DNA of 39,486 bases, from positions 1-39,486 of the IMG/VR virus record IMGVR_UViG_3300002144_000160. One strand, 5' to 3'. Under the pieces are notes generated by a model. It was given only the letters and a program-made list of their open reading frames with translations, was not told the origin of the DNA and did no database searches. The position numbers were made by a program, and so were the translations under genes. The DNA is from a virus. This document shows, piece by piece, positions 2,554-18,224 of the stretch (its first letter is position 1; each line of letters starts with the position of its first letter).

Positions 2554-2762
2554 AAACAAAAGAAGTAACATTTAGAGATCCAATTATTGAAAAAGTATGC
2601 GATCAACTAGTAAGCAGATCCGATGTAGGATATAAAAAGTATGGTGTAACCTTAGACGAAGATGTGCCGGACTTACAGAAGTGGTTACAACACTTACAAG
2701 AAGAACTATTAGACGCAGCTAACTACGTAGAAAAACTAAAAAGTGTATTAAGCAATGATTAA
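2550..2762 (+). CDS. Small MazG-like (all-alpha NTP pyrophosphohydrolase-like) protein
   Basis: This 70-residue helical protein has the pattern RSxVGYKKYGVTL, then WLQHLQEELLDAANYVEKL. The EELLDAANY helix matches the ExxD metal-binding helix of MazG/dCTPase-type enzymes that hydrolyse NTPs to NMP and pyrophosphate. The first EExxE helix of a full MazG is not obvious, so it may be a minimal form or may work as an oligomer. It overlaps the thymidylate synthase homologue by 8 bases, which places it in nucleotide-pool control. If it acts on dCTP it would supply dCMP to the next enzyme; that substrate is inference. Confidence 0.6.
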   Translation: MKTKEVTFRDPIIEKVCDQLVSRSDVGYKKYGVTLDEDVPDLQKWLQHLQEELLDAANYVEKLKSVLSND

Positions 2763-3591
2763 TATAGAGAGAGAATACAGAAAACTTATGTACGATATCC
2801 TTGCTACAGGCAAAGATAAGTCAGATAGAACAGGTACAGGCACAAAGTCTGTGTTTGGTAGAACTATCCAGCACGATATGAGCGAAGGATTTCCTATGTT
2901 AACATCTAAAAAAGTCAGCTTCAATGCTGCAAGAACTGAATTGCTGTGGATATTAAACGGTAGAACAGATCTAAAGTATCTTGAAGACAATGGCGTTAAA
3001 TACTGGAGGCCTGATTACGAACGCTCAGGTAGAACAGATGAAACGTTAGGTCCAGTATACGGCAAGCAATGGCGCGATTTTAACGGCGTAGATCAACTAG
3101 ACGAGCTTGTGTATAGCATTAAGCTAGAACCAGATTCAAGACGTCTTATGGTTAGCGCATGGAATCCAGCTGAGCTTGATAATATGGTTTTGCCTCCGTG
3201 TCATTACGGTTTTCAAGTCTATATTAATGACGGTGTTATGGATCTTATGTGGCAACAACGATCTGCCGATGTGTTTTTAGGATTACCTTACGATATTGCA
3301 ATGTACGGATTACTATTAGAAATGTTAGCCAAGGGTGCTGATTTAAAGCCCGGACGTTTAATTGGTCAACTTGGTGATTGCCATTTGTATAACAACCACT
3401 TAGACCAAGCTAAAGAATTTTTAGATAGACCAATAAGAGCAACACCCCAGTTAGAATTGACGCAAGGTATATTTCATTCAGATGGGGCATTACATAGTAG
3501 TGCTCTTTATATACCCGGAAGTCAAGAAATTAAATTAGTTAATTATAACCCCCTGCCAGCTATAAAAGCTCCCTTGAGCGTTGGCAACTAA
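2755..3591 (+). CDS. thyA: Thymidylate synthase family enzyme (ThyA-like), possibly acting on dCMP
   Basis: A 278-residue ThyA-fold enzyme of full family length. Conserved features are the phosphate-binding segment SDRTGTGT near the N-terminus, GPVYGKQWR, the catalytic cysteine in PPCHYGFQ (C149), QRSADVFLGLP (169-178), GDCHLYNNH and the C-terminal YNPLPAIKAP folate segment. Family members methylate dUMP with methylene-tetrahydrofolate. The residue equivalent to E. coli Asn177, which reads the uracil ring, is Asp (D180). The alignment from the catalytic cysteine is gap-free with a constant offset of 3. Asp at this site is found in T4 dCMP hydroxymethylase, and Asn-to-Asp mutants of thymidylate synthase prefer dCMP. 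The product may therefore be 5-methyl- or 5-hydroxymethyl-dCMP. Family membership is certain; the substrate is inferred. Confidence 0.95.
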   Translation: MINIEREYRKLMYDILATGKDKSDRTGTGTKSVFGRTIQHDMSEGFPMLTSKKVSFNAARTELLWILNGRTDLKYLEDNGVKYWRPDYERSGRTDETLGPVYGKQWRDFNGVDQLDELVYSIKLEPDSRRLMVSAWNPAELDNMVLPPCHYGFQVYINDGVMDLMWQQRSADVFLGLPYDIAMYGLLLEMLAKGADLKPGRLIGQLGDCHLYNNHLDQAKEFLDRPIRATPQLELTQGIFHSDGALHSSALYIPGSQEIKLVNYNPLPAIKAPLSVGN

Positions 3592-3603
3592 AACAATTAA
3601 ATT

Positions 3604-4476
3604 ATGAGTAAATCAAAAAGATATTATCTATACCACGTTAAAGGTTTAAAAATAGGAGTAACAAGTAACGTGAAGCGAAGAGTTGAAGAAGAGCAAGGAT
3701 TTGCACCGGGTGAGTACGAAATACTAGCTAGCAGTGCGGACAAAGAAATAATTTCTAATATGGAATTTGATCAGCAAAGAAAGTTTGGTTATTCAACAGA
3801 TAGAGAAAGCTACGCTCAAGTCACTAGGCCAAAGCAGCCGTATGCTGGTGATAAGCCTAATGTAACAGATCAAACAATTACCTTCCCGTGTCCCATAGTA
3901 AAGCTAGACGAGTGGATGCGGTCTAAGTTACCTTTATCTATAACAATACCGAACAAAGGAGTTGCTTTAATAACGTTAGAAAATATAAACGAAGTTATGG
4001 ATCTTGTTCAAACTTCTCAATGGCGCAAAGAAAGATGTTATATATACAACAATAAATTGTATGCAGCGTGCAAAGAGCAAACTACACAGGGATCAAACGA
4101 TTTTATGAGTATGACAGTTAATGAGCCGTCTTACGCCTACGACTACCAGCCACCGGCAGTTACAGCAACATGCAACAAGTGTATATTCCCTAAGATACGT
4201 GAGTGGGCAAAAGAGCGCGGTATATTTGACAAAGGCGATGCTAAAACACAATACGTAAAGCTGATGGAAGAAGCTGGAGAAGTTGCTAGAGCTATACTAA
4301 AGAATGATACGTCTGAGATAAAAGACGGTATTGGTGATATGGTTGTTGTTTTAACCAACTTAGCGCACTTGTCAGGTCTTACTATAGAAGAATGTATTGA
4401 GTCCGCTTATGATGTTATAAGCAAGCGCAAGGGTGCAATGGTTAACGGATCTTTTGTTAAGAATGAAACGCTTTAA
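3604..4476 (+). CDS. GIY-YIG-like N-domain fused to MazG nucleotide pyrophosphohydrolase
   Basis: A 290-residue two-domain protein. Residues 1-70 (YYLYHVKGLKIGVTSNVKRR and following) resemble GIY-YIG/T5orf172-type nuclease domains, with the second strand KIGVT and an Arg pair. The middle (about 80-160, with TFPCPIVKL) is a module I recall following such domains in phages. Residues about 195-285 form a MazG domain: KLMEEAGEVARAIL carries the EExxE helix and EIKDGIGDMVVVL the ExxD helix, the metal-binding set for NTP to NMP plus pyrophosphate. It sits 12 bases after the ThyA-like gene. The GIY-YIG assignment is weaker than MazG because a clear catalytic Glu is not evident; the domain could bind DNA without cutting it. 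Confidence 0.85.
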   Translation: MSKSKRYYLYHVKGLKIGVTSNVKRRVEEEQGFAPGEYEILASSADKEIISNMEFDQQRKFGYSTDRESYAQVTRPKQPYAGDKPNVTDQTITFPCPIVKLDEWMRSKLPLSITIPNKGVALITLENINEVMDLVQTSQWRKERCYIYNNKLYAACKEQTTQGSNDFMSMTVNEPSYAYDYQPPAVTATCNKCIFPKIREWAKERGIFDKGDAKTQYVKLMEEAGEVARAILKNDTSEIKDGIGDMVVVLTNLAHLSGLTIEECIESAYDVISKRKGAMVNGSFVKNETL

Positions 4477-4918
4477 AAAGTCAAAGAATAAAGGTCCTGT
4501 CCGCGCTAAAAAAGCTAGTGCCGACGGGATCCAATTCAGATCAGGACTTGAGAAGCATACCTACTTAGCACTTAAAGCCACCAACCTGTTTGAATTGTAC
4601 GAAGACGAAGTATTTAAAACCTTAGAAGGTTTCACATTCCCTAATGAATCTATTGAAAAACAATCTAATGGCAAGGGAGAGTTTAAAAACCGAGGGGCTA
4701 AAAAAATACTAGGCATTAAATACACACCAGATTTTACTGGTTATGATTACATAATCGAATGCAAAGGAAGAGCTAACGAACAATTTCCTTTACGTTGGAA
4801 ACTATTTAAAAGATGGTGTGTTAATAATGGAGAAACTAGAACACTATATAAACCTCAGAATCAAGCAGATGTAGCTGAAATGATAAAACTTATATTAGAT
4901 GGTAGAAAACAAAAATAA
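4463..4918 (+). CDS. PD-(D/E)XK nuclease (endonuclease I / resolvase-like)
   Basis: The protein is 151 residues from the ATG at 4463, chosen because the upstream in-frame ATG at 4433 would add a Leu-rich stretch and overlap the MazG gene by 44 bases instead of 14. After a Lys/Arg-rich start come FRSGLEKHTYLAL (helix with Glu), YTPDFTGYDYIIECKGR (the PD...ECK metal and catalytic motif) and FPLRWKLFKRW. The arrangement matches phage endonucleases such as T7 gp3 (Holliday-junction resolvase) and related small PDDEXK proteins. Likely jobs are resolving replication branches or degrading host DNA. Family confidence is high; the exact substrate is unknown. Confidence 0.82.
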   Translation: MKRFKKSKNKGPVRAKKASADGIQFRSGLEKHTYLALKATNLFELYEDEVFKTLEGFTFPNESIEKQSNGKGEFKNRGAKKILGIKYTPDFTGYDYIIECKGRANEQFPLRWKLFKRWCVNNGETRTLYKPQNQADVAEMIKLILDGRKQK

Positions 4919-5210: not shown

Positions 5211-7073
5211 ATGAATTTATCAAACAAAATATTATCAGACATTACAGTGTACATGAAGTATGCGAAGTATATACCAGAAACAAAACGCCGCGAAACGTGG
5301 GAGCAATTAGTTGGCCGTAATGAGGCCATGCATATAAAGAAATTTCCGGAACTTAAAGAAGAAATAAAAACAGCCTATGAAGATGTGTATAGCAAAAACA
5401 TATTACCGTCTATGCGAAGTCTGCAGTTTGGCGGAAAACCTATCGAGATATCTCCTAACAGGATTTATAACTGTGCTTACTTACCAATTGAATCCGTAGC
5501 TGCTTTTAGCGAAACGATGTTCTTATTGTTAGGTGGAACAGGGGTAGGTTACTCAGTGCAACAGCATCACGTAGACAAATTACCAGCAATTACTGTGCCA
5601 TTTAAAAAACGTACTAAAAGATTTTTAGTAATGGATTCAATCGAAGGTTGGGCAGATGCAATTAAATTTTGTATGAAGTCTTATCTTGGTAACAAAAGAT
5701 CTTCTAAAATAGAGTTTGATTACTCAGACATTAGACCTAAAGGAGCAAGACTTGTAACATCAGGAGGTAAAGCACCTGGTCCTCAGCCGCTTAAAGAATG
5801 TATCGTAAAGATCATGGGCATAATGGACAGTAAGAAAGACGGTGAATACTTAACAACAGTTGAGGCACACGATATTATATGTCACATTGCTGATTCAGTT
5901 TTAGCTGGAGGTATTAGAAGAGCCGCTTTAATCGCGTTGTTTTCGTCTACAGATGATGCGATGATCGGATGTAAGTCAGGAGATTGGTGGGAGAAAAATC
6001 CACAAAGAGGTAGAGCTAATAACTCGGCAGTATTAATACGTCAGAAGCTAACCAAAGAATTCTTTTTAGGATTGTGGAAACGCATTGAGCTATCAGGATC
6101 AGGAGAACCCGGTTTCTATTTAAGCAAAGACAAAGATTGGGGAACAAACCCATGCTGTGAAATTGCATTGAGACCATACCAATTCTGTAACTTATGTGAA
6201 GTTAATGCATCGGAAATTGATAGTCAAGAAGAATTTGATAGAAGAGTTAAGCATGCATCGTTCATAGGAACAATACAAGCCTCATACACGAGCTTTCATT
6301 ATCTTAGAGGAATTTGGCAAGAGACAACAGAAAAGGATGCTTTAATTGGCGTTTCTATGACAGGTATCGGATCTGGTGCAGTGCTAAAATTAGATATGAA
6401 GAAAGCCGCTAAGATCGTTAATAAAGAAAACAACAGGGTTGCAAAGCTAATAGGTATTAATCCTTCCGCTAGAACAACAACTGTTAAACCTGCAGGCACA
6501 ACCTCTTTAACGTTAGGAACCTCATCAGGTATTCACGCTTGGCACAATGATTACTATGTACGTAGAATCCGTGTAGGTAAGAATGAATCGATGTACAAGT
6601 TTCTTATAGAAAACCATCCGGAATTAGTTGAAGACGAATACTTCAGACCTCATGACACAGGAGTTATTAGTATACCACAAAAAGCGCCTGATGGGTCTAT
6701 TCTTAGAACAGAATCACCAGTTGATTTGTTGGAACGCATAAAAACTGTATCACAAGAATGGGTTGCTCCAGGGCACAGAGACGGTGCTAACCGCCATAAC
6801 ATATCAGCTACCATTAGTATCAGAGATGATGAGTGGGAAATGATTGGCGATTGGATGTGGGATAATAAAGAATTTTACAATGGTTTATCTGTATTGCCTT
6901 ATAACGGTGGTACTTATGTTCAAGCCCCCTTTGAGGATATAACCAAAGAAAAATACGAAGAGTTAATGGCAACATTACAAAATGTAAATGTAGCCACTAT
7001 TGAAGAGGACGATGATGAAACTGATTTGTCTGGTGAGTTAGCGTGCGCAGGGGGTGCATGTGAGATCACTTAA
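5211..7073 (+). CDS. nrdJ: Adenosylcobalamin-dependent (class II) ribonucleotide reductase, monomeric type
   Basis: A 620-residue enzyme of the Lactobacillus leichmannii RTPR type, reducing ribonucleotides to deoxyribonucleotides with a coenzyme-B12-generated thiyl radical. Visible parts are IYNCAYLPI (C88, matching RTPR C119), the active-site loop NPCCEI (C315 and E317, matching the radical Cys408 and Glu410), a cysteine 11 residues later (C326, matching C419), TTVKPAGTTSL, and a C-terminal relay CAGGAC (C612 and C617, the same spacing as RTPR C731 and C736). It is shorter than RTPR (739), as is common in phages. RTPR-type enzymes usually have NPCGEI; here the Gly is a second Cys. It is the last gene of the + unit, with a terminator 8 bases after the stop. 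Confidence 0.95.
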   Translation: MNLSNKILSDITVYMKYAKYIPETKRRETWEQLVGRNEAMHIKKFPELKEEIKTAYEDVYSKNILPSMRSLQFGGKPIEISPNRIYNCAYLPIESVAAFSETMFLLLGGTGVGYSVQQHHVDKLPAITVPFKKRTKRFLVMDSIEGWADAIKFCMKSYLGNKRSSKIEFDYSDIRPKGARLVTSGGKAPGPQPLKECIVKIMGIMDSKKDGEYLTTVEAHDIICHIADSVLAGGIRRAALIALFSSTDDAMIGCKSGDWWEKNPQRGRANNSAVLIRQKLTKEFFLGLWKRIELSGSGEPGFYLSKDKDWGTNPCCEIALRPYQFCNLCEVNASEIDSQEEFDRRVKHASFIGTIQASYTSFHYLRGIWQETTEKDALIGVSMTGIGSGAVLKLDMKKAAKIVNKENNRVAKLIGINPSARTTTVKPAGTTSLTLGTSSGIHAWHNDYYVRRIRVGKNESMYKFLIENHPELVEDEYFRPHDTGVISIPQKAPDGSILRTESPVDLLERIKTVSQEWVAPGHRDGANRHNISATISIRDDEWEMIGDWMWDNKEFYNGLSVLPYNGGTYVQAPFEDITKEKYEELMATLQNVNVATIEEDDDETDLSGELACAGGACEIT

Positions 7074-7403: not shown

Positions 7404-10400
7404 TTATTTTAAAGAATCTTTTCTTTTTTTATTCTGTAATTCTATTATTTTATTTATTCTGCTTTCTTCTGAACTAAGTTCATTAACTTGCCATCTTTTC
7501 AAGTTGTATTCGTACAACATGCTAACTTGCTGAGCCTTGCTTAGCTTTTCTATTTTTTTTCTTTTAGCAGTTTCTTCTTTGCTATACACTTTCGGCTCAG
7601 GCTTTCGCGTAGTAGGTACGTCGCTAGCTTTCATTTCTTCCCCTTTGCTTAGTGACTCCATGTCTTTTTCGTATTGCTCTTTATCTTGAAGTCCTATTAA
7701 CTTATCAACACGTTTGCCTTCGGTGTCTAATTCATTAACTTGCCACCTTTTTAAACCATACTCGTAAAGTTTGTCTACTTGCTCTTTTTTTGTCATGTCC
7801 GTTAAAAGAAGCCTTCTTCTTTCCGTTTTGTCAAGCTTACTAAATTCTTCCTTTTCAGTTTTTCTTTCTTTTTCGCCCTCAAGTTTCTTAAACCTTTCTT
7901 TTTCCGCTTCTTTAGTTGCAGCCTTAGTTGCTTCAGATTCCAGTTGCCATTTAGGCCAACCCATTATTATTAATGGCTTCATCCAAGCTTCTGTGTCTGC
8001 GCTAGCAACATCAACAGCGTCTATTGCCATTCCTACTGCCCTGTCGACCGGCAAAGATGTAACACCTGCAATTGCACTAGACGCGGCAGTTACATACGGA
8101 TGCTTGAGTGACATTTTGTCAAACTCAATTTCCTTCTGTCCCCATTCTATTGCGCTTCCTGCTTTACCAAGCTTAGTTAGCTTACTAGACAACGGAGGAG
8201 ACATCTTTAACAATTCCTCATAAATAGTCATCTTATAGTCTTTGTTCCTTTTCTTGTCGCTTCTTTGATAAATTTTTATTCCTAAGTTCTTTAATACCGA
8301 AAATATTACTCCGGCTACACCAATACCTCTAAGAATACCATCAGCCATAGAATTAGCAACACTAAGCAATTTTTTGTCGTTGCTAGCTTCTTGCAGCTCC
8401 GTCATTTCTTCGTCGGATTCATCGTCGTCTCCGAACATAGCAGCGAACATTGCTTGCTGTAGGTAGTTGAAGACTGCATTTTGTATAACTCCGTAGTAAA
8501 CTAATCTAGATATGTGAGTAGCAGGTTTTCCTCTGCCATTATAAAGATCCTGGGCAGACCTTTTCATTATCCTAGCGTACTGAGAAGGAGTGTTAGCAAA
8601 AGCCAGTATGATTCGCCCTATGGGCTCTGCTTGCTGCTTAGAAGTCTTGCTTGGATCGCTCGACTGCTGAGATACTTCGGCAGTAGCTATAAAATCTTCC
8701 ATTGCTTTCTTTTCCGCAGCAACTGGATCCATTCCGTCTTTAATTAAGGAATTAACTCTGTTTCTGTAAAAAGAAGCACCACCTGTTGCAATAGCCGCAC
8801 TATCCGCCATTTTTGTTGGCAAGAATCCTGCTTTTAAAATCTTAGCTAATACACCTTGAAACCCGCCTTCTTTAGCCGTGGTTGCAATATCCGCTTCATT
8901 TACGTTAATTCTTAATCCATCTCGCCTGTCTACCAAGTAGTCAGAGTTCATTAAGTATATCCAATCCTTCCAATACTGTGGCTGGTTAGCAAATGCCCTA
9001 CTTGCCTGATAAAGATTGTTCCCTTCAAAGTTTATGAAGTTAGTGAAAGATATAAGCTGTAATACAGCAGATCTTCTGTTAAGAAACATTATGTTACCAA
9101 CAGCTCCGTTTAACCATCTAACAAACGTATCTGTAACTGTGTTAGGTGTAGGTACGGTATTTCTACCCGATTTCATTCTTCTTAAAGCATCTTTGACAGC
9201 TACCACGTAATTCTCACCGTAGGCAGCCTCTAGTTTGCTCATGTTCTTACTAGAAAATATAACATCAACATTTTGTTGCCATAATTCTAACAGCCCTTTT
9301 CTTCCTTCAGTGTTAAGATCGTTAAGTAAATCCGATGTTATAGTACCAGCCGGCCAGTTTTTATTGGGAGTAGCTGATTTTTTACCTTTATTAAGAGCCA
9401 GTAGTTGATCGCCAAAAGCTTTTAAATTCGGGTTAGCATTAACGTAATTTACTAGTATTGGCAAATCAACATTGGATAAGCCTTCAACCTCTATTCCTTG
9501 AGCGTCCCATACGTATACTCTAATAGCCATCTCTTTGCTAAACAAACTTTCCTTCATTTTGCCATTCTCGTCCTCGTACTCAAAAGTCTTTTTAAGTTCT
9601 TTAGGTACAATACCAAGTTGTTTCTTTACAGCTTTGTAGTCTTTAGCCATAGCGATTCTACCTTTTCGCAATCCATTTATAGCTCTCGCATACGGTTGCA
9701 ATAAGTGTTCCGTATAAAACGCTAAAGCTGCTTCCCCTTGTTTTCCTTTAGGCAATGTAGTATACAATAACCCTAAGAAATCTTCAGCTGATGGCGGTAT
9801 AAAGAATTTCATTCTAAATTTCTTAACCTTGCCTTTAAGCGCCGCTTTAACCGACTTGTATTCTTTAAAGTCTTCTATACCGGATTCCTGCTCTATTATC
9901 TTATTAAATTCCTGATCTAAAGTTTTACTGTATCTTATACGGCTTTGTTGTGTCTTGCTTTTTACATCGAGGGTATTAATAACATCTTTAACGGCTTTTG
10001 GCTGAGCATCTAAATTAGTTGACTGCCCAGGCAAAGCCTCACCTTTTGTAGACAACTCATTTGTTAAAAAGTTAATTTCTCCTTCAAGTTTTTTAGAATA
10101 CTTAACCGTATAATTTTTGCCAAAGACTTTACCTGAATCGGTATTCATCATGATAGACGGCCCATTAATTTTGCCCTTAGTATCTCTAGGTACTTTTAAA
10201 GCTAAATCTTTTGTACCATGATCCATGCGATCAAACCATTCTTGTTTGCTACCTCCAAGGTTTTTAAGAGCCAGTAATTTACCGTCTTTAAATGCTATTT
10301 CAAAACCGCCATCATTAATCTCTACAGCTCCAGTGTCTTCATTAACCATTTCGGTAAAGACGGGCTTACCGTAATTCTCCCACATGTTAAAAGATGCCTT

Positions 10401-13400
10401 TGTTAATTTAACCGGGCCAGTAGCGTATATTTCCGGGTTTTTAACAGTCCCTCCTTTAGCGGGTCCGTTATCAAACTCCTTTTGAGTCATGTTTGGGTCT
10501 TTAGTTTTGTAGTAAGAAACGTATTTTTGAACCCTGTTTACTTCAGGATCATTGTTGCGCTCCATTTGTACATAAAAATTATCCTGGCTAGTATCATAGC
10601 TTCCCTCTCTTATAGTGTATCCTTCGGCTTTGGCTTGATCTAATTCTTTGTTAAAGTCTTGTTCATTTTCCCTGTCTATTACCCATTGATCGTTAGGATC
10701 TGTGCTGTCGTATTCTGCTTTTCCCGCAACCCATCCTGGCTTTAAATTGCCAATAAAATCAAACATAACGTCCTCCACTCGGTTGCCTAGGTTATCAAAT
10801 GTTATATAGTTTTCCACAACCCCCGCATTCACTATAGCTTCGTACGTAACCTTAACTGTAGTTCCAATAGGAATACCTGGGGGGGTTTCTTTTCGCGCTT
10901 TTTGTTCTGCCGGGGTGTATTCGGTTTTTTGTACCGTTACGCACCAAGGGTTGGCTTTTTCGCCCCAATGAGTATCTAACATTCTTCTAACAGCCTGCTG
11001 ACCTCCACGCTGAGTTGTTATTTGAAATGTTTCTACACCTTCTGGTAAAGATTTTTTATTAAAAAATTGTTTTTCTTTATTAGGGTCTAATCGCTCAGCC
11101 TTAACTTCTCCTGCAAATTTATCTATAATGTCGCGAGGATTGCTAAAGTCCATTACGTTTAGCTTTTTTAGCTCGGCTATTCTTATAGCTTCACCTACAA
11201 TTTCAGCGTCAACAGGAAAATTGGTAGGGCTCTTCGCTACAAAGTTTAAAGCAGCCTTTTTGTATTTAGCTTGATTTTTTTCTGGTATATCTAAACTCTT
11301 AACCCAGTCGAATACCTCGTCTATTTGCTGTTCTGCTGAGAACACTTTGTTACCTTCTATTACATCGCCGCCTCGTAGCTTATCAAGTATTGTGCTGTAT
11401 TCTGCACGTATTTTTTTAGAGTACTTAGCAGCTTTAGCTAGTTCAACCTTACTTTGCACATCGTCTAATCTAGAAAGGGCATCGCCTACCGCAGCCACAT
11501 TACCTACGTGATCGTCTGCGAAGTAAAAGTCATTGTAACCTTCTGCAAATTTGCTTACAACCCAGTTAGCTTTTGCCTGTGGGTCTGAGCTTGCAAGTCC
11601 GGTAATATTAGATAGAGGAATGTCAAGACCGATTCCCTTGAGAAATTCGTGTATAGCATTAGCGCTATTAGCCGGGCGAGCGGTTAATATGTAAACATCT
11701 TGGTTACCAAACTTCTTGTTTCTATCTACAGCCTTATTAAAGAATGGGCCTTTAGCACCGCTCATCACTTTGCTAAATTCACTAAAATCAAATTCAGCAC
11801 CGTTAGCTAAAAATGTATCGCCTTCTTTTGCGAATCTTGATGCATCTAATTTGCCTTTAGTTCCATCAGGCATTGTGTATAACACGTTGCTTTTGGTTGT
11901 TGCCAATGTATCGTCAAAATCCCAAACGCTAATGCCTCTGGTCGGCCTGTCAAGGCTATTACCTAGGTCTATAGCTTTATCAAATGCCTCAGCTTGCTGT
12001 AAAGACTGCTCTAAAGTTTGCCCTTCTACTCGCAAGTTCTTAGGCAAGTTTTCACTATTAAGTTTAGCGGATTGCTTATGTTTTGCACCGTAATTTACAT
12101 CAATCGCTACTTTTCCCTTATAATTATCTATTAAATCATTATACCTGCCTTCCTCTAAGCTTCCTTCTTTCTTTAGCTGTTTGTCAATAGTCTTAGATAT
12201 ATTATTTATAGTAGTTTTATCTAAATATGCATCTAAAGTAGCTTTGTTTCTATTTTTGATATAGCTAGCTAACTTTAAATTAACATAGCTCATGCTAGGA
12301 TTATGGTCTAATGTCGTAACATCATCTGCATTTATTTTAAAGGTTCTTCCCATGGAGGCCAATTGCCTTGCTATCCCGCTCGGGCTAACGTTCATTAATG
12401 CCAACGCACTATATGCTCCCTTTATATCTCCTGCGTCAAGAAAAGCGTCAATAATTTCGTAAAATTCTTTTCTTGCTATTTTACTATTTTTATTTACGTT
12501 AACTGCCGCTGCGTTATTATCCGCAGAATTTTTGCTATTAAGCCCTTTTTTTACTTGATCGGAGTTCACCGTAAGCCCTAAAGGCTTTGAAACGGCTCCT
12601 TTTTTTGTTTTTTCAGTAAAGTTTATGGTGTGTCCCCCTATTGATTTAGCTAGTGTAAATCCTAGCTTATTCATTTGATCAGTAGATAATCCGCTTGCTT
12701 TGCTAATTTCTTCAAAAACACGGGTATTGTTTGTTGCCTTCAAAAACGGAAACCCAGCGCTATAATCCAAGTCTCTTCCTGCTCGGTTCCATCTATTAAT
12801 ATAATCCTTAATAACCTGTATTTTAGTTTCTTTTGAAACCCCTGGCTTTTTAAGCGCTTCTACTTTGCTCCACTCAAAATTAATAGCTTCGTCTTTAACA
12901 GTGTACAAAAAGGCTTGCCCAAAAGCAAATTGCATATCTTTCATAACCTCTATTTCTGCCTTGATCTTGCTATAACCTTCGGAGTCGTGTGCCTCATATA
13001 ATTGGCGAAACAGTTTTTTATACACTCTTCCTGGCCTAGTACCAAATGCCTCAGTTGCGTACTTTTGAACAATATTAGAAGCCTCTAATCCGGTCAGTTT
13101 ACGCTTAAGGCGAATCTGCTCATCTACCATAAACTCGTATGGTAAATTCAATTTTTCTGGGGTCAGTGCTTTAGTTTTAAAGTTTTCACCTCTGAAAATT
13201 TCAATATCAACGGGGCCGTTCATAGCGGTGTACATAGGGTCAATAACGGAGGAGTACATGTTAGGATTTTTACCCGCCGCAAGATCTTCCTTTGTCATTG
13301 GGTCCAAAGCTGTTTCAGTCCTACTAAGCTCATTGGTGGTCATTCTACCGAACAAATTAATAATTCCTAGCATAGTCTGGCCTTCTCTATCTCTACCAGT

Positions 13401-16400
13401 GACCGACATTTTTTTAGTTATGTTACCCTCTGGATCTACACCTGCTCCAATTGCTTCAAGAACGTCCTCTATTGTAAGATTTTCTTTTTGCGAGCGAGCT
13501 TCGTTACCAACACCTTTGGTTTCTCTTCCTTCTCTTTGATAAGCTAATGCCATCAAGTTTTTAGGTAATCCAGTTGATTTTCCAGAATACCTACCTTTTC
13601 TGCCGCTTTCGTACTTGTATTGCGGTGCACTGGATAATGGCAAGAACTTAAGAAAGCCTTCCACCATAGTTTCGTTTAATTCTCTTTTGAAACTAAACGA
13701 CTTGTCTTCAGCTCTTTTTTCACTTAGCTTGCTTTGGAACTCAGGCACGTCCTCTAAAGCAACGCGCTCCTCTCTTATGATCCCGTTTTCTTTTATAGTA
13801 TAAACAGCTTGCTCTTTAGTAAAAGCCTCTATAGCGTTCCTAAAATCAGTATCGTTAAGGTTACCCGATCTAGCGGTTAAAGTCCCTTCTCTAACGCCAA
13901 ACATTTCTGCTAAAATATCATTTATAAGGTTAGGCACTCCTTTAAAGCTTTCAAACTTAGTTACTCCTTCGTTTTCATCCCAAAACTCCTGTACCTTCTT
14001 TTTGGTAAGGTTATACCTTTCACTGCTCGTTAAAAGCGAAGATACTTTTCTTTTTTCACGGAATGCAACGTAATCATTACTATTTTCGTCAAAGTTATCG
14101 GAAGACGTACCTTCCGCAGCTATATTAGTTAAAGCGTCAGCTCCTCTAGAAATACCTGAAGCCTTGCTTACAACTCCCTCGCGTTCCGCTTTGTCTCTCA
14201 TACGGAAATAACCTCTTTGGAATATGATATCCTCGATATCATTAAAAACTGTTTCTCCTTCTCTATTAACAGTTACGGGCTTAAATTCATTAAGAGTATA
14301 GTTTGTTATCTCTGCTCTTACCGAGGCTTTAAAATCATCTTTACTTACTGCTTTCTTCGCGTTTTCAGATATTCTATCGTAAAATACTCTAGTAAGTAAG
14401 TTTGTTGCTTTGCTTATAGGCACAGCTAGTTCTTTAATCAACTCTGCTTCAAGTTTAGTTATTTCATCTTCTTTTCGTATGGTTAACGGTTTAGCCTTAA
14501 GCGCTATTATTCTTTTTTCTCTATCGGATCTGCTTTCAACTTTGTCGTCGATTGCATTGATAGCCGCTATTGCTTCCTCGTTTAATTTTCTTTCTGCCGC
14601 TCTTTGCGCTCTATTAGCTTCTCTTACCTTAGCTATCTTAGGCTCAAGCTCTTTTTTTACTTCCTTATCTAAGGAGTACTTTCTTTTGCTCTTGTCGGCT
14701 TTGGGCCGTACTATCTTTTCTTTTTTTACGGGTTCAACAGCTGGACTTGTGGTAGTGCTTTCCGTAACAGGCACTACTCCAGCATCTAAAGCAGCCTCTG
14801 CTAAATCGTATTCTTTTTGAGCATCTTCTACAGCCTTCTTTAATGAAGGATCATACTGATCTAGGTTGTACAGATCTTCGGCATCGTCTAAAGCCTCTTC
14901 CGCTTTGTCAAATCTTTCTTGTAATCTTGACGATGATTTATTTGTTTTAGGCGCCTTCGTTCCTTCGTCTTTTATAAGTTTACCTTTTATTCCAGCCGCT
15001 CCTTTTTGAATCTTCTTACTAGCTTTACCCTTCTTTATTGATCGGTTGTATTCTTTTACGAAATCAAATACGCTTTTACCATCATCTAAAGTAATATCTT
15101 TGTTTACGCTTAAAAGCCTTTTAACTCCGTCTATTAATTTGCCGATGTTCCCCTGATTGGATTTTACTTTCCCGTCAAGCATAGCCTCACTAAGCATAGT
15201 GATTAGCTCTTCGTTATAGTTGTTTGAGTTTTCTCCAAAATCTCTGGCAGCTTGTGCTCTCCTAGCCTCAAACTCGCCGTTAGAATCCATTCCTAAACTT
15301 TTGTAATACTCGTTTAAAGATTTACCAACTGCAGCAGTGTTTCCAGAGTCGTCCTTTAATGTATTCTTTAAATACCTATGTAATAACTCGTGAGCTGCTG
15401 TATTTATTCTACCATCTTTTATAGCCGCTGCTTTGTTTACCAGTATAACATCACTACCGTCTTTCATTGCAATTATAACCCCGTATGCAGTCTTATCTAT
15501 ATCGGTATCCTCAGCTCCATTAACTTTAAGCTCGTCTATGCGGTCGTCAATTTCTTGTTGAGTATCGTAAGCCTCCAGCTCAGAGCCAAGATCTAAAGCT
15601 TTGTTTATTTTTTTAGCTGTTTCAACATCCTTGGCAGCTGCTTCTTTTACAAACTTAGCAGCTTTACCGGTTTTGTTGGCAGCCTTTATTTTCTCGTCTA
15701 AAACTTTTATGGCAGCATCATTATCTCCTCTAAAGGCTGGGTCTAGATTTTTGTTCTTCTCCACTAACTCCTGTTTCTCAATCAGCAGTTGCAGTTCTGC
15801 GCCAGACACATTAGCAGGAGAATTCTTTAATGCGGTAGTCATTTTTTTAGCAAAACTTATAGCCTCCTCTATTTTAGCTATATCTTCTGCTTTTATTCCG
15901 CTACCAGGCTTTTTCTGCTCTTTTAGCATAGCCTTTCTCTGTTCGTACAAAGTGCCTAAAGCAATATTCATTTGCCACTCAGCTACGTTTATAAAATTGT
16001 CGTAAGTGTTGATTGCTGTCTGAGTTGCTCCTACCCCGCTTAAAGGACCACTTATTAACATGGTACTTAAGAGTATCTTTTTATTTTCAACCCACCATTG
16101 ATCTCCTAAAAATTCACTGTTAGCGATAGCAAATGCGCCGTTCAGTGCTCTTTCTCCAATGCTTTCAGTTAATTCCTCCAGGTACTCCATGCTTACGCCT
16201 CCTAGTAACTTTGCTCCACCCCCAAATACTGCTTTCTTTATGGCTGCCCATTGAAGATTTCCAGGCAACTTACTTATAGATGTAAGTATTGATTGGCTAG
16301 GTGTTATCATTTTGATGTCGGGGTAGATCATTTGGATAGCCGCAGTCATTAAAGACTGTTGCGCAGAATATATTGTGGCCGTGTTTTTATCCATTCCAGC

Positions 16401-18224
16401 ATCCAAAGCATTAGCGTAGTTGCTCATGGTAACAGCTTCTATTGTTGCTTTTGCCGTAATAAATTCTATGTTATCTTTTGATAATATTTTTTTAAATTTA
16501 TTAGTCCTGCTGGTTACATCGCCTATTGCCTTATAGTAATTATCTACTTGACCTTGTTTTGCTTTCCTCATTAACTGCAACGTAAACCCAATTCCGTCTC
16601 CAACTAAAGCCAGTACTTCTGTTCCCTCTTGTTCAAAAAGACCTTTACCATTTTCAAATACGGTACTAGCCTCCACACCTAATTGGTCGTAGGCTATATT
16701 GTTTTTTACAGTATCAAAAAAAGCATCGTATACGTTGTATTTTTCTGTATCCCCCTCCATTAGCCCTAGACCAAAAGAACCAAATTTAGTCAATAGAAAA
16801 GTAGGCAATCCAATCTCGCCCTCCAGAGCTAACTGGAAGGTGCTTTGTAAAAAAGAGTTCAAGCCTTTGGCAGCTCCCCCTAGTTCAGCGCTACTTTCTT
16901 TTTTAAACTGGTCTATGATATCGCTTTTCTTAAAAGCATTGCCTATTGTGTTAGCGGCTAAATCTATTTTATACGCTCCAGCTAATGTAATTTGATCTGA
17001 TTTTAGCTTTTCAAATTGCGTTTCTGCCTCTGTTTGCCTTTTATCAAATCCAGCTACTATGCTGTTTATTTGTTTTCCTAATATATTTATCTGATCAATT
17101 TCCGCTTGATTTAACTCTTTGTTTGTTTTTGTGCCTTTTATTTTTTTAATTTGAGCGTTTAGCTCGGCTACTTGCTGGGTAGCGCCGTTTAAATCCTTAA
17201 CAAGATCTTCGTTTAGGTTAGCTGCTTGATATTCGTTATCTTTAGACGTTTTTTTGTATGCGTTTACACGAGCCTCTTTTAATAGGTTTTCTTTTACTTC
17301 TAAAGATGCTGTGTCAGAAAGCAGCCTACCTCTTAACACCTTGTCTTTGGACACTATATCTGCTACCTCACTATAAACTGCTTGGTCGTATTTCAGCACT
17401 TGGCTAGGCATGGAATCAGCTGCTCCAAAAGTTTCCGGAAAAGCTCTGCTCAATCCAAGGCTTTCGTTTACCAGCCTACTAGCTGAGGCTAGCATTGGAA
17501 AGTTTTTAAATATAGGACCAGTTTCTGTTGCTGCACTGTAGCCGTTTGTGTCCTCTACCGCTTTCTGCATAGCAGTGTATACTTCTTTTTGCTCCGGACT
17601 AAGACTTGCTTCCGCTACTTCTTTGTCGCTGCCAATGGGCATCTGCCTAATTGCAAACAGGCGTTCTGTTTCAGACTCTTGCAGCTGCGCTTGTAGTTGG
17701 GCCTCTCTTTTAGCTAACTCTTTATAATCCGGGCTTGCTGAAAAAGTATTACTTAAGGCGCTCTGTACTTCCCTTAGTTCCTCTTCTATCCCGTTTCTTT
17801 CTATAGGATCGGATACCCATGGATTGAAGGTTGTACCAGCGTCCTTTTCTTCTTCAGGAACAGCTTCGTTAAGAGCTTTATACTCTTCTTCTGTAACTTC
17901 TTTGCCATTAAATGTAAACGGCACTTCTCCTCCTAAATCAATTTCTTGATCATCAACTGGCGGAAATCCTTGAAATTCCAAAGAACCATCTTCCTGCGGT
18001 AATTCCGTATCTTGTTGTGCTTCCCTTGCGTCCTCCGCATTCGCACTTTGAGGAGGGCTTTGAAAATCCCCTGCTTCTGGAGCTTCCTTTGGGCCAACGT
18101 CTTTAGTTTCTATCTCTAACCTTTCGATAGTGAAGTTGTTTGCTTCCGCTTCCGCTAAGCCTTTTTGCCTGGCGCTAATGCTATCAAAAGTAACTTCTTT
18201 TCCATTTATACGATATCTAAACAT
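7404..18224 (-). CDS. Giant multidomain internal virion / ejection protein (polyvalent protein)
   Basis: At 3606 residues this is the largest gene, at the position of T7 gp16 after two other ejection-protein candidates. Visible in order: NGKEVT motifs at 7 and 106 around an acidic linker; long helices; hydrophobic segments near 467-488 and 722-738; a zincin-like HELLH at 945-949; a charged coiled-coil stretch at about 1100-1200; a HAD phosphatase-like domain with DFDDT (2102-2106), LTARP (T2181) and FADD (D2237, D2238); an ANPWCVT motif (C2428) followed by a FKDGKLLAL stretch near 2645; a conserved-looking block near 2800; hydrophobic segments at about 3040-3066, 3236-3263, 3298-3319 and 3378-3407; and two LYEYxLKRWQVNEL repeats at the C-terminus. 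It probably enters the host envelope with the DNA, while the enzymatic domains may act on host targets. No lytic transglycosylase or RNA polymerase motif was seen. Confidence 0.8.
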   Translation of the reverse strand: MFRYRINGKEVTFDSISARQKGLAEAEANNFTIERLEIETKDVGPKEAPEAGDFQSPPQSANAEDAREAQQDTELPQEDGSLEFQGFPPVDDQEIDLGGEVPFTFNGKEVTEEEYKALNEAVPEEEKDAGTTFNPWVSDPIERNGIEEELREVQSALSNTFSASPDYKELAKREAQLQAQLQESETERLFAIRQMPIGSDKEVAEASLSPEQKEVYTAMQKAVEDTNGYSAATETGPIFKNFPMLASASRLVNESLGLSRAFPETFGAADSMPSQVLKYDQAVYSEVADIVSKDKVLRGRLLSDTASLEVKENLLKEARVNAYKKTSKDNEYQAANLNEDLVKDLNGATQQVAELNAQIKKIKGTKTNKELNQAEIDQINILGKQINSIVAGFDKRQTEAETQFEKLKSDQITLAGAYKIDLAANTIGNAFKKSDIIDQFKKESSAELGGAAKGLNSFLQSTFQLALEGEIGLPTFLLTKFGSFGLGLMEGDTEKYNVYDAFFDTVKNNIAYDQLGVEASTVFENGKGLFEQEGTEVLALVGDGIGFTLQLMRKAKQGQVDNYYKAIGDVTSRTNKFKKILSKDNIEFITAKATIEAVTMSNYANALDAGMDKNTATIYSAQQSLMTAAIQMIYPDIKMITPSQSILTSISKLPGNLQWAAIKKAVFGGGAKLLGGVSMEYLEELTESIGERALNGAFAIANSEFLGDQWWVENKKILLSTMLISGPLSGVGATQTAINTYDNFINVAEWQMNIALGTLYEQRKAMLKEQKKPGSGIKAEDIAKIEEAISFAKKMTTALKNSPANVSGAELQLLIEKQELVEKNKNLDPAFRGDNDAAIKVLDEKIKAANKTGKAAKFVKEAAAKDVETAKKINKALDLGSELEAYDTQQEIDDRIDELKVNGAEDTDIDKTAYGVIIAMKDGSDVILVNKAAAIKDGRINTAAHELLHRYLKNTLKDDSGNTAAVGKSLNEYYKSLGMDSNGEFEARRAQAARDFGENSNNYNEELITMLSEAMLDGKVKSNQGNIGKLIDGVKRLLSVNKDITLDDGKSVFDFVKEYNRSIKKGKASKKIQKGAAGIKGKLIKDEGTKAPKTNKSSSRLQERFDKAEEALDDAEDLYNLDQYDPSLKKAVEDAQKEYDLAEAALDAGVVPVTESTTTSPAVEPVKKEKIVRPKADKSKRKYSLDKEVKKELEPKIAKVREANRAQRAAERKLNEEAIAAINAIDDKVESRSDREKRIIALKAKPLTIRKEDEITKLEAELIKELAVPISKATNLLTRVFYDRISENAKKAVSKDDFKASVRAEITNYTLNEFKPVTVNREGETVFNDIEDIIFQRGYFRMRDKAEREGVVSKASGISRGADALTNIAAEGTSSDNFDENSNDYVAFREKRKVSSLLTSSERYNLTKKKVQEFWDENEGVTKFESFKGVPNLINDILAEMFGVREGTLTARSGNLNDTDFRNAIEAFTKEQAVYTIKENGIIREERVALEDVPEFQSKLSEKRAEDKSFSFKRELNETMVEGFLKFLPLSSAPQYKYESGRKGRYSGKSTGLPKNLMALAYQREGRETKGVGNEARSQKENLTIEDVLEAIGAGVDPEGNITKKMSVTGRDREGQTMLGIINLFGRMTTNELSRTETALDPMTKEDLAAGKNPNMYSSVIDPMYTAMNGPVDIEIFRGENFKTKALTPEKLNLPYEFMVDEQIRLKRKLTGLEASNIVQKYATEAFGTRPGRVYKKLFRQLYEAHDSEGYSKIKAEIEVMKDMQFAFGQAFLYTVKDEAINFEWSKVEALKKPGVSKETKIQVIKDYINRWNRAGRDLDYSAGFPFLKATNNTRVFEEISKASGLSTDQMNKLGFTLAKSIGGHTINFTEKTKKGAVSKPLGLTVNSDQVKKGLNSKNSADNNAAAVNVNKNSKIARKEFYEIIDAFLDAGDIKGAYSALALMNVSPSGIARQLASMGRTFKINADDVTTLDHNPSMSYVNLKLASYIKNRNKATLDAYLDKTTINNISKTIDKQLKKEGSLEEGRYNDLIDNYKGKVAIDVNYGAKHKQSAKLNSENLPKNLRVEGQTLEQSLQQAEAFDKAIDLGNSLDRPTRGISVWDFDDTLATTKSNVLYTMPDGTKGKLDASRFAKEGDTFLANGAEFDFSEFSKVMSGAKGPFFNKAVDRNKKFGNQDVYILTARPANSANAIHEFLKGIGLDIPLSNITGLASSDPQAKANWVVSKFAEGYNDFYFADDHVGNVAAVGDALSRLDDVQSKVELAKAAKYSKKIRAEYSTILDKLRGGDVIEGNKVFSAEQQIDEVFDWVKSLDIPEKNQAKYKKAALNFVAKSPTNFPVDAEIVGEAIRIAELKKLNVMDFSNPRDIIDKFAGEVKAERLDPNKEKQFFNKKSLPEGVETFQITTQRGGQQAVRRMLDTHWGEKANPWCVTVQKTEYTPAEQKARKETPPGIPIGTTVKVTYEAIVNAGVVENYITFDNLGNRVEDVMFDFIGNLKPGWVAGKAEYDSTDPNDQWVIDRENEQDFNKELDQAKAEGYTIREGSYDTSQDNFYVQMERNNDPEVNRVQKYVSYYKTKDPNMTQKEFDNGPAKGGTVKNPEIYATGPVKLTKASFNMWENYGKPVFTEMVNEDTGAVEINDGGFEIAFKDGKLLALKNLGGSKQEWFDRMDHGTKDLALKVPRDTKGKINGPSIMMNTDSGKVFGKNYTVKYSKKLEGEINFLTNELSTKGEALPGQSTNLDAQPKAVKDVINTLDVKSKTQQSRIRYSKTLDQEFNKIIEQESGIEDFKEYKSVKAALKGKVKKFRMKFFIPPSAEDFLGLLYTTLPKGKQGEAALAFYTEHLLQPYARAINGLRKGRIAMAKDYKAVKKQLGIVPKELKKTFEYEDENGKMKESLFSKEMAIRVYVWDAQGIEVEGLSNVDLPILVNYVNANPNLKAFGDQLLALNKGKKSATPNKNWPAGTITSDLLNDLNTEGRKGLLELWQQNVDVIFSSKNMSKLEAAYGENYVVAVKDALRRMKSGRNTVPTPNTVTDTFVRWLNGAVGNIMFLNRRSAVLQLISFTNFINFEGNNLYQASRAFANQPQYWKDWIYLMNSDYLVDRRDGLRINVNEADIATTAKEGGFQGVLAKILKAGFLPTKMADSAAIATGGASFYRNRVNSLIKDGMDPVAAEKKAMEDFIATAEVSQQSSDPSKTSKQQAEPIGRIILAFANTPSQYARIMKRSAQDLYNGRGKPATHISRLVYYGVIQNAVFNYLQQAMFAAMFGDDDESDEEMTELQEASNDKKLLSVANSMADGILRGIGVAGVIFSVLKNLGIKIYQRSDKKRNKDYKMTIYEELLKMSPPLSSKLTKLGKAGSAIEWGQKEIEFDKMSLKHPYVTAASSAIAGVTSLPVDRAVGMAIDAVDVASADTEAWMKPLIIMGWPKWQLESEATKAATKEAEKERFKKLEGEKERKTEKEEFSKLDKTERRRLLLTDMTKKEQVDKLYEYGLKRWQVNELDTEGKRVDKLIGLQDKEQYEKDMESLSKGEEMKASDVPTTRKPEPKVYSKEETAKRKKIEKLSKAQQVSMLYEYNLKRWQVNELSSEESRINKIIELQNKKRKDSLK

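Follow-up and report, generated by a model that had tools for sequence, protein, structure and literature searches.

The ThyA-family gene at positions 2755-3591 of the window, the whole 39,486-base stretch of viral DNA analysed here, probably encodes a deoxycytidylate 5-methylase derived from thymidylate synthase (TS). This is the best overall explanation of its sequence and setting, with a probability of roughly 0.72. The predicted enzyme has Asp in place of the Asn that selects uracil in ordinary TS, and it occupies a gene slot in which three TS-family types, all with this Asp, replace one another among related phages. The kind of enzyme is already known from the phages Xp12 and T4, and Asp177 was tied to modified cytosine in 2021. 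The literature searched yielded neither the phage lineage nor its slot in which dCMP-modifying enzymes are interchanged.

The ThyA homologue and its selector residue

The open reading frame (2755-3591, plus strand) encodes a full-length ThyA homologue of 278 amino acids (PF00303, 6e-86). It is about 45% identical to solved TS structures, so that the TS fold is already fixed for it. In the alignment with the E. coli enzyme, the catalytic Cys149 (TGT codon, 3199-3201, plus strand) stands at C146, and the 31 residues from C149 to D180 run without a gap, the same spacing as from C146 to N177. The GAT codon at 3292-3294 (plus strand) places Asp180 at the pyrimidine selector, which confirms the earlier note's observation of a changed dUMP/dCMP selector in this gene. 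The note had also listed the other key residues as kept, and the RS pair, D169, the GDCHLYNNH segment and the equivalents of W80 and E58 are indeed retained. All of E58, W80, Y94, R126, R127, C146, R166, S167, D169, H207 and Y209 of E. coli are matched and L143 and H147 are likewise conserved; besides D180 and C149, the window protein reads R169-S170, H210, Y212, L146, W84 and V101-Y102. E. coli W83 is Asp in the window protein and Asn or Asp across the family. This position was dropped as a diagnostic, since Asn also stands at it in T4-like td and T5-like TS.

The C-terminal tail (NPLPAIKAPLSVGN) aligns to the tail of E. coli TS. It contains IKAPLSVGN and terminates in LSVGN where ThyA has VAI. 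The C-terminal Ile264 of the E. coli enzyme normally closes the active site. In most family members the Val that aligns to Ile264 is followed by one or two further residues (G, GN, GK or GI), which in the window are encoded at 3583-3588.

Fold and sequence family are those of dUMP-type ThyA, and the Asn177 uracil selector is replaced by Asp180. The prediction that automatic annotation would return plain thymidylate synthase is borne out by TIGR03284, which scores the protein at 276 bits over a cut-off of 108. Public TS models call such proteins plain TS, so that genome modification in a widely sampled group of uncultured marine phages would be overlooked.

Asp is fixed across the family

The selector residue was counted in all loci fetched by then, using a search for PY followed by any residue. 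In the 129 distinct proteins of the family that have this motif, Asp follows in every case, encoded by GAT in 120 and by GAC in nine; a chance change or a misassembled codon is thereby ruled out. The first set consisted of the window and its 80 closest IMG/VR relatives (64-82% identity). There the strict motif found PYD in 80 of 81 proteins; the one it missed reads PYDF and brings the count to 81 of 81. Every bacterial ThyA checked in a genome scan, mostly from Paenibacillus and Methylococcales, has Asn at this position.

A maximum-likelihood TS tree built with the selector column removed unites the family, all of it Asp-type, in one clade (UFBoot 100) that is separate from both T4 gp42 and the Xp12-like enzyme; the deeper nodes are poorly supported and leave the sister group of the family unplaced. 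The earlier note had held that a position within ordinary dUMP-type TS would speak against its reading, and the clade of its own is a different outcome. No cultured phage with exactly this family was found, the best match being 46%. A scan for the pattern PFD, hence a sample selected for Asp, returned 29 further Asp-type proteins. In another phage group a T4-td-like TS with Asp177 (L197) is sister to T4-like td with Asn (UFBoot 100), and its Asp is an independent change.

One slot, three types of occupant

The block common to the relatives consists of genes for an SSB-like protein, a primase-helicase, a small protein, TS, MazG and a DUF1064 nuclease. In the window, all on the plus strand, the upstream anchor of the slot is the primase-helicase (600-2306; phrog_239, 3.7e-86). 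A small open reading frame of conserved synteny follows (2299-2553), then another small conserved one (2550-2762; phrog_11184, 3e-15) that lies 5′ of the TS gene here but 3′ of MazG in most relatives. Downstream of the TS gene, the reading frame at 3604-4476 has a GIY-YIG-like N-terminal part, recognised by eye and with no Pfam match, and a C-terminal MazG-type NTP pyrophosphohydrolase domain at about 4183-4470 (PF03819, 9.5e-9; phrog_1992/715). The downstream anchor is a DUF1064 or Holliday-junction-resolvase-like nuclease (4433-4918; PF06356, phrog_190).

Earlier scans had used the TS gene itself as anchor; three scans anchored on the upstream primase-helicase allowed the slot to be read in 203 loci, with the occupants re-read from open reading frames chosen by blastp. 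The full-length occupants comprise 72 of the window's type (type A), 107 resembling T4 gp42 (type B) and 10 of a third TS type with Cys-Tyr and a TS-like tail (type C). Three further occupants are truncated and one locus has no open reading frame. Asp stands at the selector in all 189 full-length occupants of the three types, and neither an Asn-type ThyA nor a ThyX was found in the slot of the 203 loci. The distinct type B sequences of the first scan all carry S94, Y96, D145, C148 and D179, the signature that Park and colleagues proposed as diagnostic for T4-type dCMP hydroxymethylase (PMC6400193). Bacteroides phages have relatives of type B whose annotation reads deoxycytidylate 5-hydroxymethyltransferase, and the type B occupants of the sister phages are predicted to make 5-hydroxymethyl-dCMP.

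The slot occupant and MazG go together. Of the loci that extend 2.5 kb or more downstream, 180 of 180 with a TS-family gene (69 A, 102 B and 9 C) have MazG, and none of the seven without one does. In the first scan this co-occurrence gave a Fisher value of 5e-8, which the relatedness of the loci makes too small; the absences of MazG fall in two parts of the first-scan tree. Three loci without TS and MazG (L400, L412 and L415) have in the slot a calcineurin-like phosphoesterase, identified by eye.

Close pairs of loci show the replacement of a single gene, with the three TS-family types in turn at one position. A type C and a type A locus (L362 and L364) are 93.7% identical along 6.9 kb of upstream and 91.4% along 3.9 kb of downstream sequence; only the TS gene interrupts the match. 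The same pattern is seen in a second C and A pair (L353 and L377; 86.7 and 84.7%). A type B and a type A locus (L367 and L361) are 91.7% identical in the primase-helicase gene and 79% identical in MazG. On the primase-helicase tree (FastTree; a single anchor gene, with recombination within it uncorrected and loci sampled by similarity) parsimony requires at least 23 changes of slot type, the same number after nodes below 0.8 are collapsed. Shuffled slot labels give a mean of 69 changes, and slot types are thus partly inherited. One contig of 129.5 kb (L374 and L407) carries two different primase-helicase blocks, one with a gp42-like occupant and one of type A; two phages may have been joined in its assembly.

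Substrate

The enzyme very probably acts on dCMP. The change of substrate that the earlier note had proposed gains support from the Asp fixed in the family, the all-Asp slot, the exchange with a gp42-like type and the co-occurrence with MazG. According to the account in PMC8670742, TS engineered from Asn to Asp turns to dCMP (Hardy and Nalivaika 1992; Liu and Santi 1992, as cited there), the N177D enzyme of E. coli and the N229D enzyme of L. casei being reported to prefer dCMP and to form 5mdCMP. The window protein shares with these mutants Asp177 in an otherwise ordinary TS active site. It differs in being a natural enzyme, fixed in a large phage family and about 41% identical to that of E. 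coli. The family is a natural counterpart of the 1992 mutants and offers more than 100 sequences for comparison.

The 2021 study also found that Asp177 of TS homologues marks contigs with modified cytosine (PMC8670742). The Asp177 homologues of that MetaGPA work, which covered 433 sequences, resemble the window protein in this residue and come from phage metagenomes, one of them coastal. Residue 147 was the other top-ranked position beside 177 in that study. The window's family keeps the His of ordinary TS there, where Thr stands in T4 gp42 and Pro in the Xp12-like enzyme; this retention counts against the methylase reading. So may the one or two residues past the TS C-terminal position in the family.

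It is improbable that the gene encodes an ordinary dTMP synthase in which Asp at 177 is tolerated and which provides the dTMP for replication. The protein does share 41-46% identity with bacterial ThyA (E. coli, Paenibacillus), the full ThyA architecture, His147, Trp80, Leu143, the tail and all catalytic residues but one, the exception being the family-invariant Asp for Asn177. Neither a second TS nor a ThyX was found in 31 long type A relatives, which speaks for this account. The terminase-nearest phage record (MW202828) has a ThyX, which likewise favours a dTMP synthase, but that record has no recognisable copy of the replication block. Opposed to this are the invariance of Asp in the family and in the 189 slot occupants of three types, a slot that never holds an Asn-type ThyA or ThyX, and the shift to dCMP of the engineered enzymes as described in PMC8670742. 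The dCMP deaminase family is also matched in none of the 31 relatives.

It is very improbable that the enzyme methylates CMP, or that the modified nucleotide serves a use other than genome modification. MilA and BcmA set a precedent as Asp-type TS-family enzymes that act on CMP (PMC5175136). The window protein, however, retains the Arg pair and the Ser associated with deoxynucleotides (equivalents of R126, R127 and S167) where MilA has Lys and Ala (PMC5175136), and its gene lies within a replication and dNTP block, beside ribonucleotide reductase.

Product

The earlier note had left open whether the product carries a methyl or a hydroxymethyl group; the signature residues and the C-terminal tail favour the methyl part of that claim. 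In T4 gp42 Asp145 activates the water, and the D145N enzyme makes no 5-hydroxymethyl-dCMP (PMC6400193). The window protein has Leu146 three residues before the catalytic Cys, where the hydroxymethylase has Asp145 (Glu), and Pro at the Ser94 position. In TS the C-terminal tail seals the active site for hydride transfer. Since Leu and Pro stand at these two positions and the TS tail is retained, the predicted product is 5-methyl-dCMP, which is likely if dCMP is indeed the substrate.

A hydroxymethylating enzyme like T4 gp42, in which water rather than hydride ends the reaction on dCMP, is unlikely. It would fit the slot, as that of sister phages holds T4-gp42-like enzymes with the hydroxymethylase signature and a swap in place may mean an identical product. 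The window protein and gp42 have in common the selector Asp (D179 in gp42), the catalytic Cys and the TS fold. In contrast to gp42, the window protein lacks the Asp145 and Ser94 equivalents, has Leu at 143 and a TS tail that gp42 lacks, and stands far from it in the tree; in gp42 even the D145N change abolished hydroxymethylation (PMC6400193). The signature residues were tried as a basis for calling the window gene a hydroxymethylase, and the assignment was rejected on them.

The deoxycytidylate methylase proposed here has a close known counterpart in the Xp12 dCMP methyltransferase (EC 2.1.1.54), with which it shares the predicted conversion of dCMP to 5-methyl-dCMP with CH2-THF, the Asp selector and the phage setting. 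A nucleotide pyrophosphohydrolase gene nearby is a further shared feature (AXL1). The sequence comparison was made with the Xp12-like TS of phage DoCa6 as a stand-in. Asp at 177 and the lack of a hydroxymethylase Asp/Glu at -3 from the Cys (Leu146) are features of the Xp12 type that the window protein has, but it lies outside the Xp12-type sequence clade, the DoCa6 enzyme being about 25% identical to it and elsewhere in the tree. The DoCa6 enzyme reads Cys-Pro where the window has Cys-His and Asn where it has Leu at 143, has no aligned TS tail and is encoded next to a dCMP deaminase.

Nucleotide supply and proposed pathway

The gene at 5211-7073 (plus strand) encodes an adenosylcobalamin-dependent (class II) ribonucleotide reductase (phrog_367, 1.5e-127; TIGR02505), a supplier of deoxynucleotides. 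Most fetched relatives, four of the first five among them, have a class I enzyme at this place; some, like the window, have class II. The ribonucleotide reductase is another exchanged module.

In T4, the dCTPase gp56 supplies dCMP to gp42, and by natural analogy the MazG domain is the likely source of dCMP from dCTP in the window's phage. MazG has relatives among the all-alpha NTP pyrophosphatases, such as human DCTPP1 and mouse RS21-C6. These two enzymes are reported to cut 5-methyl-dCTP (PMC10742078).

In the proposed pathway ribonucleotide reductase would lead to dCTP (or dCDP), and the MazG domain would cleave dCTP to dCMP, depleting the unmodified dCTP. Asp180 would bind dCMP by contacting and protonating N3, and Cys149 would attack C6. 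The methylene group of CH2-THF would then pass to C5 and undergo the hydride reduction known from ThyA, a step proposed on the strength of the retained Leu146, Trp84 and C-terminal tail, giving 5-methyl-dCMP and DHF. Host kinases would lift 5-methyl-dCMP to 5-methyl-dCTP for incorporation into phage DNA. A thymidylate kinase was sought in 24 relatives, all with a gp42-like or third-type occupant, and gave no match. The 35 genomes searched for a T4-gp1-type dNMP kinase, which represent every type and include the window, had none either. This leaves phosphorylation to the host or to an unrecognised enzyme. Virion DNA with largely 5-methylcytosine is somewhat favoured on this reading of the genes, and the modification would probably protect against host nucleases. 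In sister phages the slot's T4-type enzyme would produce 5-hydroxymethyl-dCMP.

The odds are about even that one slot in marine podovirus-like phages toggles genome chemistry between 5-methylcytosine DNA (ThyA-derived enzyme) and 5-hydroxymethylcytosine DNA (gp42-like enzyme), while MazG, primase-helicase and ribonucleotide reductase stay constant as partners, perhaps evading modification-specific host defences. Defences against modified cytosine in phage DNA are the subject of two recent papers (PMC11078745, PMC12923530). The swap of a predicted methylase for a predicted hydroxymethylase at a fixed position lets one ask whether phages change their base modification under such defences.

Phage lineage and other genes

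The source record in IMG/VR comprises the same 39,486 bases and is classed as linear, which often denotes a fragment. Flavobacterium and Cellulophaga phages have structural proteins similar to those encoded here, which makes a Bacteroidota host likely; the terminase is 43% identical to that of Elemovirus and 63% to that of an uncultured podovirus.

Glycosyltransferases were absent from the best 25 of 36 Pfam matches in five type A relatives, and none was seen by eye in the gene-content comparison. In a small sample of related genomes, a DNA ligase gene is present in six of six with the gp42-like type (G032, G034, G041, G042, G044 and G046), in the one genome of the third type that was read and in one of seven of type A. 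DNA ligase domains have been associated with modified contigs (PMC8670742). The minus strand of the window encodes a protein of 3,606 amino acids (7404-18224), which has no Pfam match and a weak PHROG match to polynucleotide kinase (2.4e-5), and which is conserved in the relatives read.
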